Positions 36,487-55,177 of a stretch of DNA of 57,218 bases are shown here, piece after piece; position 1 is the first letter of the stretch; the number at the start of each line of letters is the position of its first letter. The notes below the pieces were generated by a model. The model ran no database searches. It had not been told where the DNA came from and saw only the letters and a list, made by a program, of their open reading frames with translations. Origin of the DNA: Deltaproteobacteria bacterium HGW-Deltaproteobacteria-19 (GTDB lineage Bacteria; Desulfobacterota; Syntrophia; Syntrophales; PHBD01); NCBI GenBank assembly GCA_002841865.1, contig PHBD01000019.1:1-57218 (forward strand), in the 5' to 3' direction. The position numbers and the translations under genes were made by a program.

Positions 36487-37985
36487 GTATCGACTGTCAT
36501 CTGGTGGACGTGGAAGTGGACGTATCCCACGGCATTCCTCATTTTTCCACGGTCGGACTGCCTGATGCAGCGGTCCGGGAGAGCAAAGACCGGATTCGGG
36601 CCGCCATCCGCAACTCCGGCTACCCTTTCCCCCGCCACCACGTGACCGTCAACCTGGCGCCGGCCGACATCCGGAAGGAGGGCACCGGGTTCGACCTGCC
36701 CATCTCCATGTCCATCCTGGCGGCCCAGGGAATCGTCCAACCCGAGACGCTCCACGGCTACGTATTCATGGGTGAACTCTCACTCAACGGAACAATCAAG
36801 GGCGTCCAGGGAGTCCTGCCGGTGGCCCAGGAAGTGCGTCGTTCCGGGAGGCCGGGAATCGTCGTGGCCCGTGAAAATGCAGACGAAGCAGCCATGGTGG
36901 AAGGTCTCGACGTTCTGCCGGTGGACGTTCTGTCGGACGTGGTGGACGGTTTTACCGGGACGAGGCCGATCGCACCCCACCGGGTGGATCTGGATGCCCT
37001 GTTTCGGGAGGGCCTGCAGCCGGCCCTGGATTTCAGCGAGATCCGGGGGCAGGAGCAGGCCAAGCGGGCCATGGAGGTAGCCGCCGCGGGAGGACACAAC
37101 ATCCTGATGATCGGCCCCCCGGGGGCGGGGAAAACCATGCTGGCCCAGCGGCTTCCCGGCATCCTCCCCGAGTTGACGCTGCCGGAGGCCATCGAGACGA
37201 CCAAGATCTTTTCCGTGGCGGGCCTCCTGGAGCGGAACCGCTCCCTTGTCGGCATGCGGCCCTTCCGTTCGCCTCACCACACCGTGTCCGACGCGGGGAT
37301 GGTGGGAGGCGGACAGCAGCCCCGGCCCGGGGAAATCAGCCTGGCCCACCACGGTGTTCTCTTCCTCGATGAACTGCCGGAATTCCGCAAGAACGTCCTG
37401 GAGGCCCTCCGCCAGCCCATGGAAGACGGGGTGATCACCATCAGCCGATCCGCCGTGAGCACGACCTTCCCCGCCCGTTTCATGCTCGTGGCGGCGATGA
37501 ATCCCTGCCCCTGCGGATTCCTCGGGGAGACGCGACGGCACTGCCGCTGTTCCGCCACGGCGGTCCGCAACTACCAGTCGCGGATCTCCGGACCGCTCCT
37601 GGACCGGATCGATCTCCATATCGAGGTTCCGGCGGTGCGGCACCGGGAACTGGCCGGAGGATCCCAGGGAGAGAACTCGGCCGCCATCGCCGGCCGCGTC
37701 CGCAGCGCCCGCATGCTTCAGAAGGAACGTTTCGGTGGAAACACCGCGGCTACGAACGCCCGGATGGACAATGGCCAGATCCGACGGTTCTGTTCCCTCG
37801 ATGTGCAGTCCCGGCATCTCCTCGAAATGGCCATGGAAAAGCTGGGGCTCAGCGCCCGGGCCTACACGAGAATCCTCAAGACCGCCCGCACAATCGCCGA
37901 TCTGGCGGAGGCGGAATCCATCGATCCTTCCCATGTCGCCGAGGCGATCCAGTACAGAAGCCTTGATCGACTCGTCCAATCATGA
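36453..37985 (+). CDS. comM: Magnesium-chelatase-like ATPase ComM/YifB
   Basis: A 510-residue AAA+ protein. The N-terminal third resembles the Lon-protease-like S5 fold (IGIDCHLVDVEVDVSHGIPHFSTVGLPDAAVRESKDRI). Then come the Walker A GPPGAGKTMLAQRLPG, Walker B VLFLDELPEF, the AMNPCPCGF block and the C-terminal SARAYTRILKTARTIADL helix domain. ComM helps branch migration of transforming DNA in naturally competent bacteria. The GTG start at 36453 has a GAGGGAA site. A degraded copy of its first codons survives in R1. Confidence 0.96.
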   Translation: MIVKSSGATVIGIDCHLVDVEVDVSHGIPHFSTVGLPDAAVRESKDRIRAAIRNSGYPFPRHHVTVNLAPADIRKEGTGFDLPISMSILAAQGIVQPETLHGYVFMGELSLNGTIKGVQGVLPVAQEVRRSGRPGIVVARENADEAAMVEGLDVLPVDVLSDVVDGFTGTRPIAPHRVDLDALFREGLQPALDFSEIRGQEQAKRAMEVAAAGGHNILMIGPPGAGKTMLAQRLPGILPELTLPEAIETTKIFSVAGLLERNRSLVGMRPFRSPHHTVSDAGMVGGGQQPRPGEISLAHHGVLFLDELPEFRKNVLEALRQPMEDGVITISRSAVSTTFPARFMLVAAMNPCPCGFLGETRRHCRCSATAVRNYQSRISGPLLDRIDLHIEVPAVRHRELAGGSQGENSAAIAGRVRSARMLQKERFGGNTAATNARMDNGQIRRFCSLDVQSRHLLEMAMEKLGLSARAYTRILKTARTIADLAEAESIDPSHVAEAIQYRSLDRLVQS

Positions 37986-50941: not shown

Positions 50942-51118
50942 TTTTTTATATCGTTTCATGATCCCCGTCCGGGTGAAGACGGCGTCGACGCGGCCCACCA
51001 GGGCCACGATGCTTTCACGCACGCTTTTCTCACGGTCGATGGCGGCAGCGTCGCGATCCGTGACGAGAACCGCATCAAGGGCCTTCCCGGCGGCGCTTAC
51101 CGTTGGTCCGCTACCCAA
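50942..51118 (-). pseudogene. 3' remnant of an orotate phosphoribosyltransferase gene
   Basis: About 58 codons on the minus strand align end to end with the C-terminus of the intact PyrE at 54605-55177. GRVDAVFTRTGIMKRYKKEL corresponds to GRVDAVFTRTEIMERYRKI, IDREKSVRESIVALV to IDREEGGRENILALV, and GPTVSAAGKA to GSTITAIEKA. The catalytic PRPP loop and everything before it are missing. It sits directly against the terminator of the 4-hydroxybutyryl-CoA dehydratase gene. It could be the trace of a pyrE copy displaced by insertion of that gene. Confidence 0.85.
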
Positions 51119-51171: not shown

Positions 51172-52623
51172 TCAGTCCTTCATCCCCATGATTTTCTTTG
51201 CCATCTTCTTCTTCGCGTCGAAATCCGTCAGAACGGTGAACATGAACCGCTGGGTCTGGGGAGCGCCGGCTCCATGCCAGGTCCCGGGCCCATGAAGGCC
51301 CGCCGACCAGTGCTGGAGGAACTTGGCGACCTTCATCCGCTTGTCCGCCGGGGCCGCGGCCCCGAAGGCCTTCTTCAGCATGGGGCCGACCTCCGGGTCT
51401 TCCAGATCCTTCAGCCTCGGCATGGTCACCACCAGGCCGCCGCCGATGTCCCCCGCGTTCTTGATGATTTCCCAGAATCCGTGGGCGATGTTCAGCTTGG
51501 CGGCGTTGCCGAAGAGATCGTCCGGCAGAAAGACGCCGGAGCCTTTCGGTTCCTCACGGCCTCTCATGGCGGCTGCGATGGCGCAGGCGTGGGAGGTCTC
51601 GCTGAAACGGACCATGTCGATGATCTTCTCCTGGATGTGGGGGACCTTTTCCACGCCGATGTATTCGGCGGCCAGCATGGTGCCTCCGATGATCAGGTCG
51701 GCGAACCCCACCTTGCAGGCCCCGCCGCAGTTCATGCGGTGGGCCTTGGCGAACCGGGTGACCATTTTCCCGCAGTACTTGGTCTCGCCGCAGAGAAACA
51801 CACGTTCCCAGGGAATGAACACGTTGTCGAACACCATCGTCGATGTTTCCCGCTGACCGTAGATCGGGTTCCCGAGTTCCGCTTCATCGTCGCCGAACAT
51901 TTCGCGCTCCGCGGAATAGGCGTTGTACTGGCAGATGTAGGACAGACCCGGGACACTGTTCTGGACGGCAAAGGCCAGGGCGAATTTTTCCTCCCCTTCC
52001 TTCAGGGCGCCGCCGGGAAGCACCAGGGTTTCATGGGAGCCGATGGCGCCGCTCTGGCTGACCTTGATCCCCCGCACCACAATCCCGTCGTCCCGTTTCT
52101 CGACGAGGTGGACGAAAGTGTCGATATCATCCTGCTGGGAGGGGCGTTTCTTCCGGTCCCCTTTGGCGTCGGTGATGGCACCCGACACGGCCAGGTCGTT
52201 GGCCTGGGCAAAGGCCAGCCATTTGTTGAAATTTTCCTCATACTTCGTCCCCAGGACCTGGTCCATTTCCCAGGTCGTGGCGGCCACACTGTTAAGGGCG
52301 TCGCAGCCGACACAGCGGTAGTTGCAGGTCCCCACCGTCTGGCTGGTGAGAAGGGCCATCTCCTGCCGCATGTCCAGATCGTGAATATTCCGTGCTACAT
52401 TGAGGTTGCGGTTGATCGGCTCTCCCGTCAGGTGGGACTTCGCCACCATGACTTCCCTGTTTTTCTCGTCCTCGGCCAGCCCGTACATAGCGGAGTTGGC
52501 CATAACCATGGAGCGTGTGACCGGATTGTCCAGCAGATTCGTTACCCATTTCCCCCCGCAATACACACGGGGCTTCATCTTTCTGATGCTGTTCAGATAC
52601 TCCTCTGCCGTTTTTAGAGCCAT
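51172..52623 (-). CDS. 4-hydroxybutyryl-CoA dehydratase/vinylacetyl-CoA isomerase-type protein
   Basis: A 483-residue member of the family that dehydrates 4-hydroxybutyryl-CoA to crotonyl-CoA with FAD and a [4Fe-4S] cluster. Cys100 and Cys104 in GTCNYRCVGC sit in the position and spacing of two cluster ligands of the Clostridium enzyme, and HRMNCGGACK (His295, Cys299, Cys303) is where the remaining His and Cys are expected. The GNPIYGQRETSTMVFDNVFIPWERVF block is common to the HpaB-related fold. A GGGAGGGG site precedes the ATG. A small gene starts the operon, and a strong terminator ends it. Confidence 0.88.
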   Translation of the reverse strand: MALKTAEEYLNSIRKMKPRVYCGGKWVTNLLDNPVTRSMVMANSAMYGLAEDEKNREVMVAKSHLTGEPINRNLNVARNIHDLDMRQEMALLTSQTVGTCNYRCVGCDALNSVAATTWEMDQVLGTKYEENFNKWLAFAQANDLAVSGAITDAKGDRKKRPSQQDDIDTFVHLVEKRDDGIVVRGIKVSQSGAIGSHETLVLPGGALKEGEEKFALAFAVQNSVPGLSYICQYNAYSAEREMFGDDEAELGNPIYGQRETSTMVFDNVFIPWERVFLCGETKYCGKMVTRFAKAHRMNCGGACKVGFADLIIGGTMLAAEYIGVEKVPHIQEKIIDMVRFSETSHACAIAAAMRGREEPKGSGVFLPDDLFGNAAKLNIAHGFWEIIKNAGDIGGGLVVTMPRLKDLEDPEVGPMLKKAFGAAAPADKRMKVAKFLQHWSAGLHGPGTWHGAGAPQTQRFMFTVLTDFDAKKKMAKKIMGMKD

Positions 52624-52645
52624 CGTCCCCTCCTTCCCCCTTTTT

Positions 52646-52945
52646 TCATTTTTCGGATCTGACTTCGACGACCCATTCCGCCTCTCCCCCGGTACCGGGA
52701 AAGGCCATCATGTTGTGCAATGCCGCTTCCATCATCTCGATCAGTTCTGCCGCGGGGCGTCCTCCGGACAGCAGCAGTACCAATCGCCGTCCTTTCCGTT
52801 CGGCTCCTACAATCAGGTCCTTCTGGTGGAAACCTGGAAGCACCTGTTTCCGGGTACAGCAATCCGTGAAACCGGCAAAGGTCCCTGCCAACCCCTGATA
52901 TGTCGCGCAAACCTTGCCGTCGATATCCACGGCGATGGTTTCCAT
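52646..52945 (-). CDS. Small unknown protein upstream of the 4-hydroxybutyryl-CoA dehydratase gene
   Basis: A 99-residue protein starting METIAVDIDGKVCATYQGLAG. It has a mid-length region with CCTRKQVLPGF and GAERKGRRLVLLLSGGRPAAELIEMMEAAL. No membrane segment and no family that I recognise. It ends 22 bases before the dehydratase gene and shares its promoter region. The start at 52945 has GAAGGGAG about eleven bases upstream, while an earlier in-frame start exists at 52972. Confidence 0.65.
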   Translation of the reverse strand: METIAVDIDGKVCATYQGLAGTFAGFTDCCTRKQVLPGFHQKDLIVGAERKGRRLVLLLSGGRPAAELIEMMEAALHNMMAFPGTGGEAEWVVEVRSEK

Positions 52946-53270
52946 GCCCGATGATCTCCCTTCAGGTGCCACTCCCTCTCCTCCTCAATATGCCTGCCCG
53001 GCTGACCCGAGTCTTTGCTTTCCTCTCCATTGACCGGGGTCTCGTCAAGAGCAGACCGTTCACGTTGATTTTCACTCAACTCGTCGACAATCAGGCTTGT
53101 GAATCCGACGTCCCGGAGACGGAGAAGCCCTGCCCGTCATTACGCCCGGGGCTATCCCGGGGAATCCCATGCGGATACAAGATCATTGATTCAGGAACAG
53201 GGCAATCCGGAAATATTACGTATTCTATACGTAGCTAAAATACGTATTACAAGGCTTGGACCGCCGCCGA
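52946..53270. other. Promoter region with a triple TACGTA motif
   Basis: A 325-base gap between the PAS-LuxR gene end and the dehydratase operon. Three TACGTA hexamers lie at 53217-53222, 53228-53233 and 53241-53246, spaced 11 and 13 bases apart, the last within a perfect AATACGTATT palindrome. They are in a distinctly AT-rich stretch. Their place beside a LuxR-type regulator gene and upstream of the dehydratase operon fits a set of operator half-sites, but this is inference. Confidence 0.55.
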
Positions 53271-54551
53271 TTACAGGGACAGGAGGTGAGACCGCAAGTT
53301 GGCCTTCCGGTTTTTCAGGCCGATTTTTTTCCGGATGTTGTCGCGGTGGACTTCTACGGTTCGGGCGGACGCATGGAGGAGCACCGCCATTTCCTTCGTC
53401 GTACGCCCTTCCTTGATGAAATTGATCACCTTGATTTCCATCGGGGTGAGATTGGGGTACTTCGACGAGAGGGTGCGCAGGAACGGGGACACGATCTCGT
53501 TCGTGTTTCTCTCCAGGATTTTCAGCTGGTTACTCTGGTGGCTGTCAAGATGGGTGATCTTCAGGTTCTCGATGTACGGCAGGATCAGCGCCCTCATGTT
53601 GAAGGTGACCTTCTCCTCCAGTTCCGCCTTGTCCTCTTCCCGGCGCTTGAGCAGAACCTTCAGGGCCGTATTGGCATCTTCCAGGTTGCGGGATTGTTCC
53701 TCCAGCTCCCTCTCCCTCTTTTTCAGGGCCTCCTCCATCATCTTGCGTTCGGTGATGTTGCGGGCGATGCCGTGGATCGATACCTGCCTGCCGTTTTCCT
53801 TCACGATCTGGGCATTCACCTCCAGCCAGACAGCCTTGCCGTCCTTCGTGTAGGTGAGAAATTCCAGGGGATTCGTGACCTGCAGACCGTCCCGCTTCTT
53901 CCGGATGAGTTCCCGGACAACGGGGAGGTAGTCCCGATCCAGAAGGGCCTCCAGATTCCGCCCCAGGAGCTGCTCTCTTTCGTAGCCGTATGTCCTGGAG
54001 ACGGAGGCATTGCAGGAGAGGATCCTGCCGTCCAGATCCAGAATGAAAATGATGTCGCTTGCGTTTTCAAAAAGCTCCCGGTACTTCTGCTCCGATTGCC
54101 GCATCGCCTCCTCGGCGCGTCTTCGCTCCGTGGTGTCCGTGACGATTTCGACGATACCGGTAAGAGCGCCTTTTTCATTCCGGACGGGATAGCTGCGCAG
54201 CACCCAGTTTTTCTCGTAGGATGAGAAATCCACGACTTCCTGGGGCTTGCCGGATTCGAGCGTTTTTTCCGCCGGGCATATGCTGCAGGGCTTGCTTCTG
54301 TTATGAAGCGCCCGATAACAGTGTTTCCCGGTCAATTGGCCCGGCACCAGGCTGAAGGCATCATGCATGGCCTTGTTGGCCCAGATGACCTTCATGTCCG
54401 TATCGAGATACAGGACAAGCTCCGTCATGGCGTCGAGGATGACCGACTTCTCCTGCTCCGATTTGCTGAGCGCTTCAAAGATCCGGCGGTACCTCTGTTC
54501 GCCCTGCCGGGTCTTCGAATCGGTCTTCTCGGTTTTCGCTGATTTTTTCAT
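53271..54551 (-). CDS. PAS-PAS sensor with LuxR-type DNA-binding domain
   Basis: A 426-residue one-component regulator. Two PAS domains are visible. The first (about 35-140) carries a four-cysteine run CYRALHNRSKPCSICP that may bind a metal or sense redox. The second (about 150-275) is the usual PAS with TERRRAEEAM and TERKMMEEALKKRE flanking. A coiled-coil follows. The C-terminal about 65 residues are a LuxR/NarL helix-turn-helix, LTPMEIKVINFIKEGRTTKEMAVLLHASARTVEVHRDNIRKKIGL. There is no kinase or receiver domain. It may read a ligand directly and switch transcription of nearby genes. Confidence 0.88.
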   Translation of the reverse strand: MKKSAKTEKTDSKTRQGEQRYRRIFEALSKSEQEKSVILDAMTELVLYLDTDMKVIWANKAMHDAFSLVPGQLTGKHCYRALHNRSKPCSICPAEKTLESGKPQEVVDFSSYEKNWVLRSYPVRNEKGALTGIVEIVTDTTERRRAEEAMRQSEQKYRELFENASDIIFILDLDGRILSCNASVSRTYGYEREQLLGRNLEALLDRDYLPVVRELIRKKRDGLQVTNPLEFLTYTKDGKAVWLEVNAQIVKENGRQVSIHGIARNITERKMMEEALKKRERELEEQSRNLEDANTALKVLLKRREEDKAELEEKVTFNMRALILPYIENLKITHLDSHQSNQLKILERNTNEIVSPFLRTLSSKYPNLTPMEIKVINFIKEGRTTKEMAVLLHASARTVEVHRDNIRKKIGLKNRKANLRSHLLSL

Positions 54552-54604
54552 TGCTTTCAGCCATGGAGCCCGCACCGTGCCTGCTCCCCGGAAAGCAGCC
54601 GGCT

Positions 54605-55177
54605 TCAGATCTTTCTGTACCGCTCCATGATCTCCGTTCGGGTAAAGACGGCATCGACACGGCCGACCAGGGCCAGGATGTTTTCGCGCCCGCCTTCCTC
54701 CCGGTCGATGAGGGCAATGACGCGATCCACGATGAGGCCCGCCTCGCGGGCCTTCTCGATGGCCGTAATCGTCGATCCGCCCGTTGTGATCACGTCGTCG
54801 AGGACAACCACGTGCTCCCCCTTCGCCACGTTCCCTTCGACGGCGCTCTTCGTCCCGTGGGCCTTCACGTCCTTCCGGACGATGAACGACTTGATCGGCT
54901 CCCCCTCCTGGAAGGAGATCACCGACAGCGCATTCGCCAGGGGATCCGCCCCCAGGGTCAGGCCGCCGGCGGCGGTGACACCGGTCCCGCGGATCATCCC
55001 GAAGAGGACGCGGCCGATCAGGTTCATTCCCTCGGGATCGAGGGTAACCGGCTTGCAGTTGAAGTAGAAGAAACTCGTTTTCCCGGAGGCCAGGGTAAAC
55101 GGCGGATCCTCGCGGTATTGAAAGGAACGGCGGAGAATCAGCTCCGCAAGACGATCCCGGTTTGCAGACAGGTCCAT
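54605..55177 (-). CDS. pyrE: Orotate phosphoribosyltransferase
   Basis: A 190-residue PyrE that joins orotate to PRPP in pyrimidine synthesis. The PRPP-binding loop HVVVLDDVITTGGSTITA is at about residues 114-131. FYFNCKPVTLDPEGM and GLTLGADPLA occur earlier, with the lysine-rich SFIVRKDVKAHGTKSAVEG loop in between. Length is slightly short of the E. coli form but normal for the group. It starts 28 bases after tonB. A 3' remnant of a second copy is present at 50942-51118. Confidence 0.97.
   Translation of the reverse strand: MDLSANRDRLAELILRRSFQYREDPPFTLASGKTSFFYFNCKPVTLDPEGMNLIGRVLFGMIRGTGVTAAGGLTLGADPLANALSVISFQEGEPIKSFIVRKDVKAHGTKSAVEGNVAKGEHVVVLDDVITTGGSTITAIEKAREAGLIVDRVIALIDREEGGRENILALVGRVDAVFTRTEIMERYRKI

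Follow-up and report, generated by a model that had tools for sequence, protein, structure and literature searches.

The three TACGTA hexamers lying between the gene of a PAS-PAS-LuxR regulator and a small gene followed by an AbfD-like gene are three of four phased boxes that abut a predicted sigma-70-type promoter on the minus strand. Judged by its conservation this operator-promoter is real; it is newly recognised here and belongs to an ordinary kind of gene switch. The observations behind it are its conservation, its fixed spacing, its promoter anatomy, its co-occurrence with the regulator and its presence at further operons. We propose, as the likely reading, that the TACGTA cluster is the core of the operator-promoter for the operon behind it, that its ligand is the adjacent PAS-PAS-LuxR regulator and that this protein activates the small-gene/AbfD-like operon. 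Positions refer to the window, i.e., the whole 57,218-nucleotide stretch of DNA that was analysed.

The hexamers lie at 53217-53222, 53228-53233 and 53241-53246, their starts 11 and 13 bp apart, as described in the earlier note, which had reported three copies in 30 bases at this spacing and had placed them next to the 3' end of the regulator gene and upstream of the small gene; both statements hold, and all three genes are on the minus strand. Read along that strand the order is 53246-53241, 53233-53228 and 53222-53217, with starts 13 and then 11 bp apart, and the hexamers become boxes A, B and C of a conserved 72-bp operator-promoter element (53177..53248, minus strand) that was recognised by profile score and by sequence-model match. 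Box A (53241..53246) is TACNTA in relatives, box B (53228..53233) is TANGTA and box C (53217..53222), which is followed by a conserved T-rich tract, is TRCGTA. Downstream of this tract, at a fixed 11-bp spacing from box C, the degenerate hexamer TCCGGA (53206..53211) abuts the -35 element, and we infer that it is a fourth box, box D, which departs from the consensus in the window. The predicted -35 element TTGCCC (53200..53205; consensus TTGnnA, with TTG in 19/19 sites) is separated by 17 bp from a predicted extended -10, TGA TCTTGT (53177..53185; consensus TGn TnnTAT), all on the minus strand. The full arrangement thus reads boxes A, B, C and D with starts 13, 11 and 11 bp apart, then TTGnnA, 17 bp and TGnTnnTAT. 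Numbered from a -35 hexamer placed at -35, the boxes would start at about -76, -63, -52 and -41, so that box A would span -76 to -71, box B -63 to -58 and box C -52 to -47.

Absence of the cluster upstream of the operon in relatives had been named in the earlier note as the finding that would speak against an operator, and it was looked for. Instead, the same ungapped element of ~72 bp (columns -38 to +33) directly follows the regulator stop in 19 of the 22 orthologs. The T, A, C, T and A of TACnTA in box A are identical in all 18 aligned sites, position 4 being free, and box A of the 19th site (genome G114) is visible in a longer record (L127). Box B has TA in 19/19 sites, G in 18/19 and the final A in 18/19; in box C the T and the G are found in 19/19. 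Box D is TCCGTA in eight and TCAGTA in four of the 19 sites, with its G and final A in every one, and in the extended -10 the T, the G, the first T and the last T are each present in 19/19. What is conserved is not TACGTA as such: among the 19 sites three carry three exact copies of it and four carry none. When each genus is represented by a single sequence (10 of the 19), pairwise identity averages 0.90, 0.91, 0.75 and 0.84 in boxes A, B, C and D and 0.81 in the tract between C and D, whereas the A-B and B-C spacers reach 0.43 and 0.44 and the flanks of the element fall to a background of 0.32 and 0.25; across these 10 genera the element differs from its flanks at p = 1.2e-13 and the boxes differ from the three spacers at p = 1e-4.

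A leave-one-family-out profile gave the 18 complete sites 43.2 to 99.3 bits, as against at most -14.3 elsewhere in the same loci; the window site scored 52.1 bits and the runner-up in the 57-kb window -29.6. By the sequence model the window element has an E value of 2.1e-16 and is the sole match at E <= 0.1 in its own genome, in a scan that scored 30 of 344 first-look candidates and with the window site in the training set. A sigma-70 promoter scan of 52900-53400 detected no promoter, which we attribute to hexamers in the window that are too poor, the -10 being a poor match to TATAAT, so that the promoter is recognised through conservation alone.

The proposed ligand is encoded at 53271..54575 on the minus strand. 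It is a 434-aa one-component regulator with the arrangement PAS-PAS-coiled coil-LuxR/GerE, assigned by Pfam matches to PAS_4, PAS_9 and GerE (PF00196, residues 375-424, E 4e-11). The C-terminal GerE helix-turn-helix (HTH) places it among the GerE/LuxR-type (NarL/FixJ) regulators and it joins a PAS sensor, here in two copies, to a LuxR HTH in one protein; PAS-family domains and GerE are the only Pfam matches at E <= 0.001, and the N-terminal receiver domain of NarL/FixJ response regulators is not among them. Secondary-structure prediction agrees with a pair of PAS folds, a long helix (residues 275-339) and an HTH. The predicted model has a mean pLDDT of 80 and a pTM of 0.41, the latter leaving the domain arrangement uncertain.

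The suggestion that a four-cysteine PAS domain might sense redox state or metal does not stand in that form. PAS1 carries three invariant cysteines (86, 97 and 100), which together with His91 are unchanged in 15/15 aligned orthologs (of 22), whereas the fourth, Cys188, sits in PAS2 and varies among orthologs. Structure comparison of the regulator returned LOV, FixL, DosP, MmoS and other PAS proteins, an assortment that says nothing specific about the signal. We nevertheless give a small but real chance to a scheme in which PAS1, through Cys86-x4-His91-x5-Cys97-x2-Cys100, binds a metal or an Fe-S cluster, making the protein a redox- or metal-responsive one-component switch. Through its FixJ-like four-box operator it would tune a radical-type AbfD-like dehydratase, a B12 acyl-CoA mutase and thiol-redox partners, as the dedicated and portable regulon of an undescribed acyl-CoA pathway in syntrophic bacteria.

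In this genome the promoter is followed first by the small conserved gene (52646..52972, minus strand), which has no Pfam or NCBIfam match. Its protein has matches in 23 of 149 genomes of the order, own genome included, and the AbfD-like gene adjoins it in 22 of these 23 loci; a search for related loci seeded with the small protein gave no match. The AbfD-like gene (51172..52623, minus strand) encodes 483 aa of the 4-hydroxybutyryl-CoA dehydratase / vinylacetyl-CoA isomerase family, and the best solved relative of its product is 1u8v (E 2.9e-112). Residues C99, C103, H292 and C299 of 1u8v, which we take to be the ligands of the [4Fe-4S] cluster, are all matched in the sequence alignment, with one residue inserted between the last two. 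NCBIfam returned two HpaB models alone, far below their cut-offs; judged by sequence, the HpaB-type fold and the four ligand residues mark the predicted protein as AbfD-like.

Several relatives (e.g., G003, G016, G059, G066 and G128) have two more genes between the regulator and the pair of small and AbfD-like genes, first a C_GCAxxG_C_C gene (PF09719) and then a CoA-disulfide-reductase-like one. On the 3' side of the AbfD-like gene the block continues in several genera with genes for a methylmalonyl-CoA-mutase-type large subunit, a B12-binding subunit, MeaB, and CobA/CobO or DUF2284. The mutase-type subunit of ~562 aa was located after the AbfD-like gene at L054 6413-8101, L062 4419-6167 and L146 5063-6748; in the own genome it is on contig C18.

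Compared with G003, a genome of the same genus with identical boxes, the window is without the 1984 bp (L048 3345-5328) that lie there between promoter and small gene and hold the C_GCAxxG_C_C and CoA-disulfide-reductase-like genes, and has 124 bp (52989-53112) in their place. As the operator is retained, it would drive the small and AbfD-like genes directly, probably through an untranslated leader of ~200 bases. Relocation of the missing C_GCAxxG gene was considered and rejected: a copy does exist on contig C18, but behind a gene that by eye is acyl-CoA-dehydrogenase-like, and without the element. Part of the 3' end of a pyrE-like gene is found again, in direct orientation, beyond the regulator-AbfD block (76% over 169 bp; 50943-51111 / 54605-55177). 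Among loci L026-L067 pyrE adjoins the regulator in this genus only, and the partial copy may record an insertion or a rearrangement that took place at pyrE.

Binding, the direction of control, the pairing of boxes by a dimer and the signal are what we infer from this arrangement. The regulator would dimerise via its PAS domains and the long coiled coil, and its FixJ/NarL-type HTHs would bind the four boxes, phased at about one helical turn and predicted to span -76 to -36. Boxes A (TACnTA) and B (TAnGTA) would act as an inverted pair, being mirror images of each other as expected for a dimer, with box C plus the T-rich tract and box D lying beside the -35; it is also conceivable that the conserved T-rich tract and the -35 region serve another factor. 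The bound protein would recruit sigma-70 polymerase to the weak -35/extended -10 promoter, and the operon would be switched on in answer to a signal sensed by PAS1, as would the C_GCAxxG_C_C, CoA-disulfide-reductase-like and B12-mutase genes in several relatives. On its position and on the poor core promoter (TTGCCC, TCTTGT) the regulator most probably activates, a core promoter of this kind fitting activation without proving it.

The same protein on the same operator might instead repress, the occupied boxes by the -35 blocking polymerase. LuxR/NarL-type proteins are capable of repression. Repression of ompW by NarL is treated in PMC4886647. In the present element box D does abut the -35, and in four genomes the operon promoter is kept beside a possibly disrupted regulator. 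Most of the boxes, however, lie upstream of the -35, the position taken by FixJ/NarL-type activators, and the core promoter of the window is poor; we therefore regard repression as unlikely, and activation by the neighbouring regulator is the reading that we retain.

That the neighbouring protein is the one that very probably reads the operator is suggested by the distribution of the two. Orthologs of the regulator (E <= 1e-100) are present in 22 of 155 genomes of the order, own genome included, with one in each, and among 395 genomes drawn from the phylum two, the own genome and G009, matched at E <= 1e-90, each of them a member of the order; named records of the regulator loci are mostly from Syntrophaceae/Syntrophales and 'Deltaproteobacteria' MAGs. 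A sequence-only model of the element, built from 17 sites and used under stricter filters to scan the 155 genomes, with at most 30 first-look candidates scored in each, gave 22 strong matches (E <= 3.2e-12) in 21 genomes, five of them outside the training set (G089, G114, G070 and two in G017). In 19 of these 21 genomes the element is accompanied by a regulator match at E <= 1e-100, 16 of the proteins being whole and three defective (one in-frame stop each in G063 and G058; residues 155-434 only in G135). The contig of G017 begins inside the regulator HTH, and in G070 the regulator is frame-shifted with its middle lost. Regulator and element co-occur at 2.9e-19 in a Fisher test, a value that overstates independence, as most sites are linked to the regulator and the two may have been inherited together.

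The regulator genomes without a strong match are the three exceptions among the 22 orthologs, namely G012 (67%) and G009 (66%), which carry the two most diverged orthologs, and G079, in which the regulator is uninterrupted and most of the element is missing. G009, the most diverged, retains a weak trace (-10.6). In G012 regulator and operon are on different contigs; the regulator has no element beside it, and a degenerate copy (15.0 bits, E 0.0029) is found at the operon. This weak site and two second sites provide the support away from the regulator: the second copy of G028 (E 4.5e-8) precedes a C_GCAxxG + CoA-disulfide-reductase-like pair that shares a contig with the main operon and is ~14 kb away from it, and that of G017 (E 2.8e-15) lies on another contig before DUF169-FixC-FixX-acyl-CoA dehydrogenase. 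G025 has neither a regulator match nor the element.

A real operator that is bound by some other factor, either a PAS-LuxR paralog or a global regulator, would account for good elements next to a broken regulator in G070 and a possibly disrupted one in G058, G063 and G135, where sequencing error is possible, and for weak second-tier matches beside other PAS-LuxR paralogs. Yet the other 131 genomes of the order, which lack a regulator match at E <= 1e-100 (G017 and G070 excluded), hold no strong match among the 30 candidates scored in each; in G073 the HTH end of the regulator and the element are lost jointly, and the three nearest paralogs of the own genome (49, 44 and 37% identity) have no TAC-like boxes within 500 bases past their stops. 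Another ligand is thus rather improbable, and the neighbouring regulator remains our candidate.

Second-tier matches of the model (E between 1e-4 and 0.1) were treated as mostly noise. Weaker sites lie before a PAS-LuxR paralog (31% identity) in G043 (11.4 bits), before nuoE/F-like genes (named by eye) that adjoin a paralog in G058 (18.9 bits) and near a paralog on G012 C18, and it may be that related paralogs read similar boxes. The G043 site (L103 5154-5207, minus strand; G043:C54:45653-45706) has three boxes at the same spacing, a hint of cross-regulation or of a shared box code. The promoter part persists, with altered boxes, in G033 (26.5 bits, E 3e-5), a genome that lacks a regulator match at E <= 1e-100; this site (L106 1960-2026) reads TACTTGG...CCAAGTA with the T-rich/-35 part intact, and its operon is split by a gene that by eye is transposase-like. 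Three genomes from a single genus (G076, G063 and G016; sites L100 4330-4365, L101 and L102) also share a shortened 36-position site that resembles box C, box D and the -35; the gene behind it looks pilin-like, with a prepilin N-terminus recognised by eye.

A regulator-seeded search for related loci returned nine loci already in our set out of the 12 checked and is therefore no independent test; the three new and more distant regulator loci (57, 43 and 33% identity) lack the element. A control built on the 17 of 23 small-gene loci that have no adjacent regulator, and that at first sight seemed to lack the motif, was dropped. In eight of them the regulator shares the contig and lies ~2 kb farther upstream, in four it is on another contig and in five there is no match at E <= 1e-100; as it is non-adjacent yet present in many the comparison would mislead.

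The stretch lies directly 3' of the regulator stop and contains palindromes, so that the boxes might be thought to act in the transcript, as the end of the regulator mRNA or as an attenuator. This is very improbable, as no consensus structure emerged (0 pairs over 17 sites), no Rfam match was found at gathering scores in 52600-53600, the sole terminator-like site in 52900-53400 (53308-53322) is on the other strand, and the second copies in G028 and G017 are not 3' of the regulator; an RNA structure or terminator is accordingly disfavoured and a DNA operator preferred.

Apart from the cluster the window holds a single extra TACGTA, at 36759. The total of four against 1.01 expected is only mildly high (at least four in 4/100 shuffles), and the signal is thus the clustering. 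Three copies within 30 bp occurred in 0/1000 dinucleotide shuffles of the window and two copies in 1/1000, and in 20,000 shuffles of the intergenic stretch 52973-53270 none had even two. A genome scan for similar clusters, as proposed in the earlier note, gave no other: matches to TACGTA-N3..30-TACGTA in the whole genome of 3,976,372 bases are confined to this cluster, as compared to one match per strand for the reversed control of the pattern. Chance clustering of a palindromic hexamer in a patch that by eye is AT-rich is ruled out by the shuffles, by the lack of other close pairs in the 3.98-Mb genome and by conservation across 19 orthologous loci.

In the open-licence literature we found no paper on PAS-LuxR regulators in Syntrophales, Syntrophaceae or Syntrophus aciditrophicus, which is weak evidence of absence, nothing on TACGTA as a LuxR operator or on C-GCAxxG-C-C with LuxR, and no paper joining 4-hydroxybutyryl-CoA dehydratase with PAS/LuxR or with butyrate oxidation by syntrophs. 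Passages of PMC13101534 mention the dehydratase once, as an analogy, and LuxR is absent from them. For the Syntrophales, which are presumed to be syntrophs, the present data offer a regulator-operator pair that is precise and open to testing. Its motif provides a means of delimiting the regulon of the AbfD-like/B12-mutase gene set, which would help to find the substrate of that set.

Among known systems the element resembles the sites of FixJ, and the two proteins share a GerE-type HTH. FixJ is the phosphorylated response regulator of the haem kinase FixL, whereas here the PAS sensors are fused straight to the HTH, with no receiver in between. FixJ sites at rhizobial fixK promoters, as given in PMC4999443, are GTAMGTAG, GTAGTTTCCC and TAAGTAATTTCCCTTA, and at fixK the protein protects -69 to -44 and -57 to -31. 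As in these sites, TAMGTA boxes (matched by box B in 12/18 and by box C in 11/19 sites) are followed by a T-rich/TTTCC stretch, and the region occupied by FixJ, or predicted here from the boxes, lies just upstream of the -35 (PMC4999443). Unlike FixJ, the present system would use four phased boxes and address acyl-CoA metabolism.

Half-sites of the TAC/GTA type upstream of the -35, a feature of NarL/FixJ response regulators, are provided by boxes A-D. The heptamers of NarL are classically arranged as 7-2-7, whereas the heptamer spacing here is 5 bp instead of 2, and the receiver domain of NarL/NarP is missing. Measured against the NarL consensus TACYYMT, as it appears in PMC4886647, box A agrees in 7/18 sites and box B, reversed, in 4/18, as an inverted pair with TAC outwards.

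The PAS-LuxR regulators PimM and PteF of Streptomyces, as described in PMC9774167, likewise have a PAS sensor fused to a LuxR HTH, are cluster-situated and act near the -35 (predicted here), but their operator consensus, CTVGGGAWWTCCCBAG, is not conserved in our loci. An operator of this type was sought in the 300 bases after the 22 regulators and rejected: best matches had 3 to 7 mismatches, and the window count was 8 versus 9.6 by chance. The GGGAWWTCCC core follows one of the 22 regulators (L027, same genus), and a match with three mismatches (53146-53161) falls within the leader, past the promoter. EL222, a LOV-LuxR light regulator, is also a one-component protein with a LOV/PAS-type sensor and a LuxR-type HTH, and its HTH (8a5r) is among the sequence matches of our regulator. 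Taken together, the pair described here very probably combines sites of the FixJ/NarL type with a one-component PAS-LuxR protein, suggesting that such half-sites serve a regulator of this class, unlike the PAS-LuxR operator presented in the review PMC9774167.
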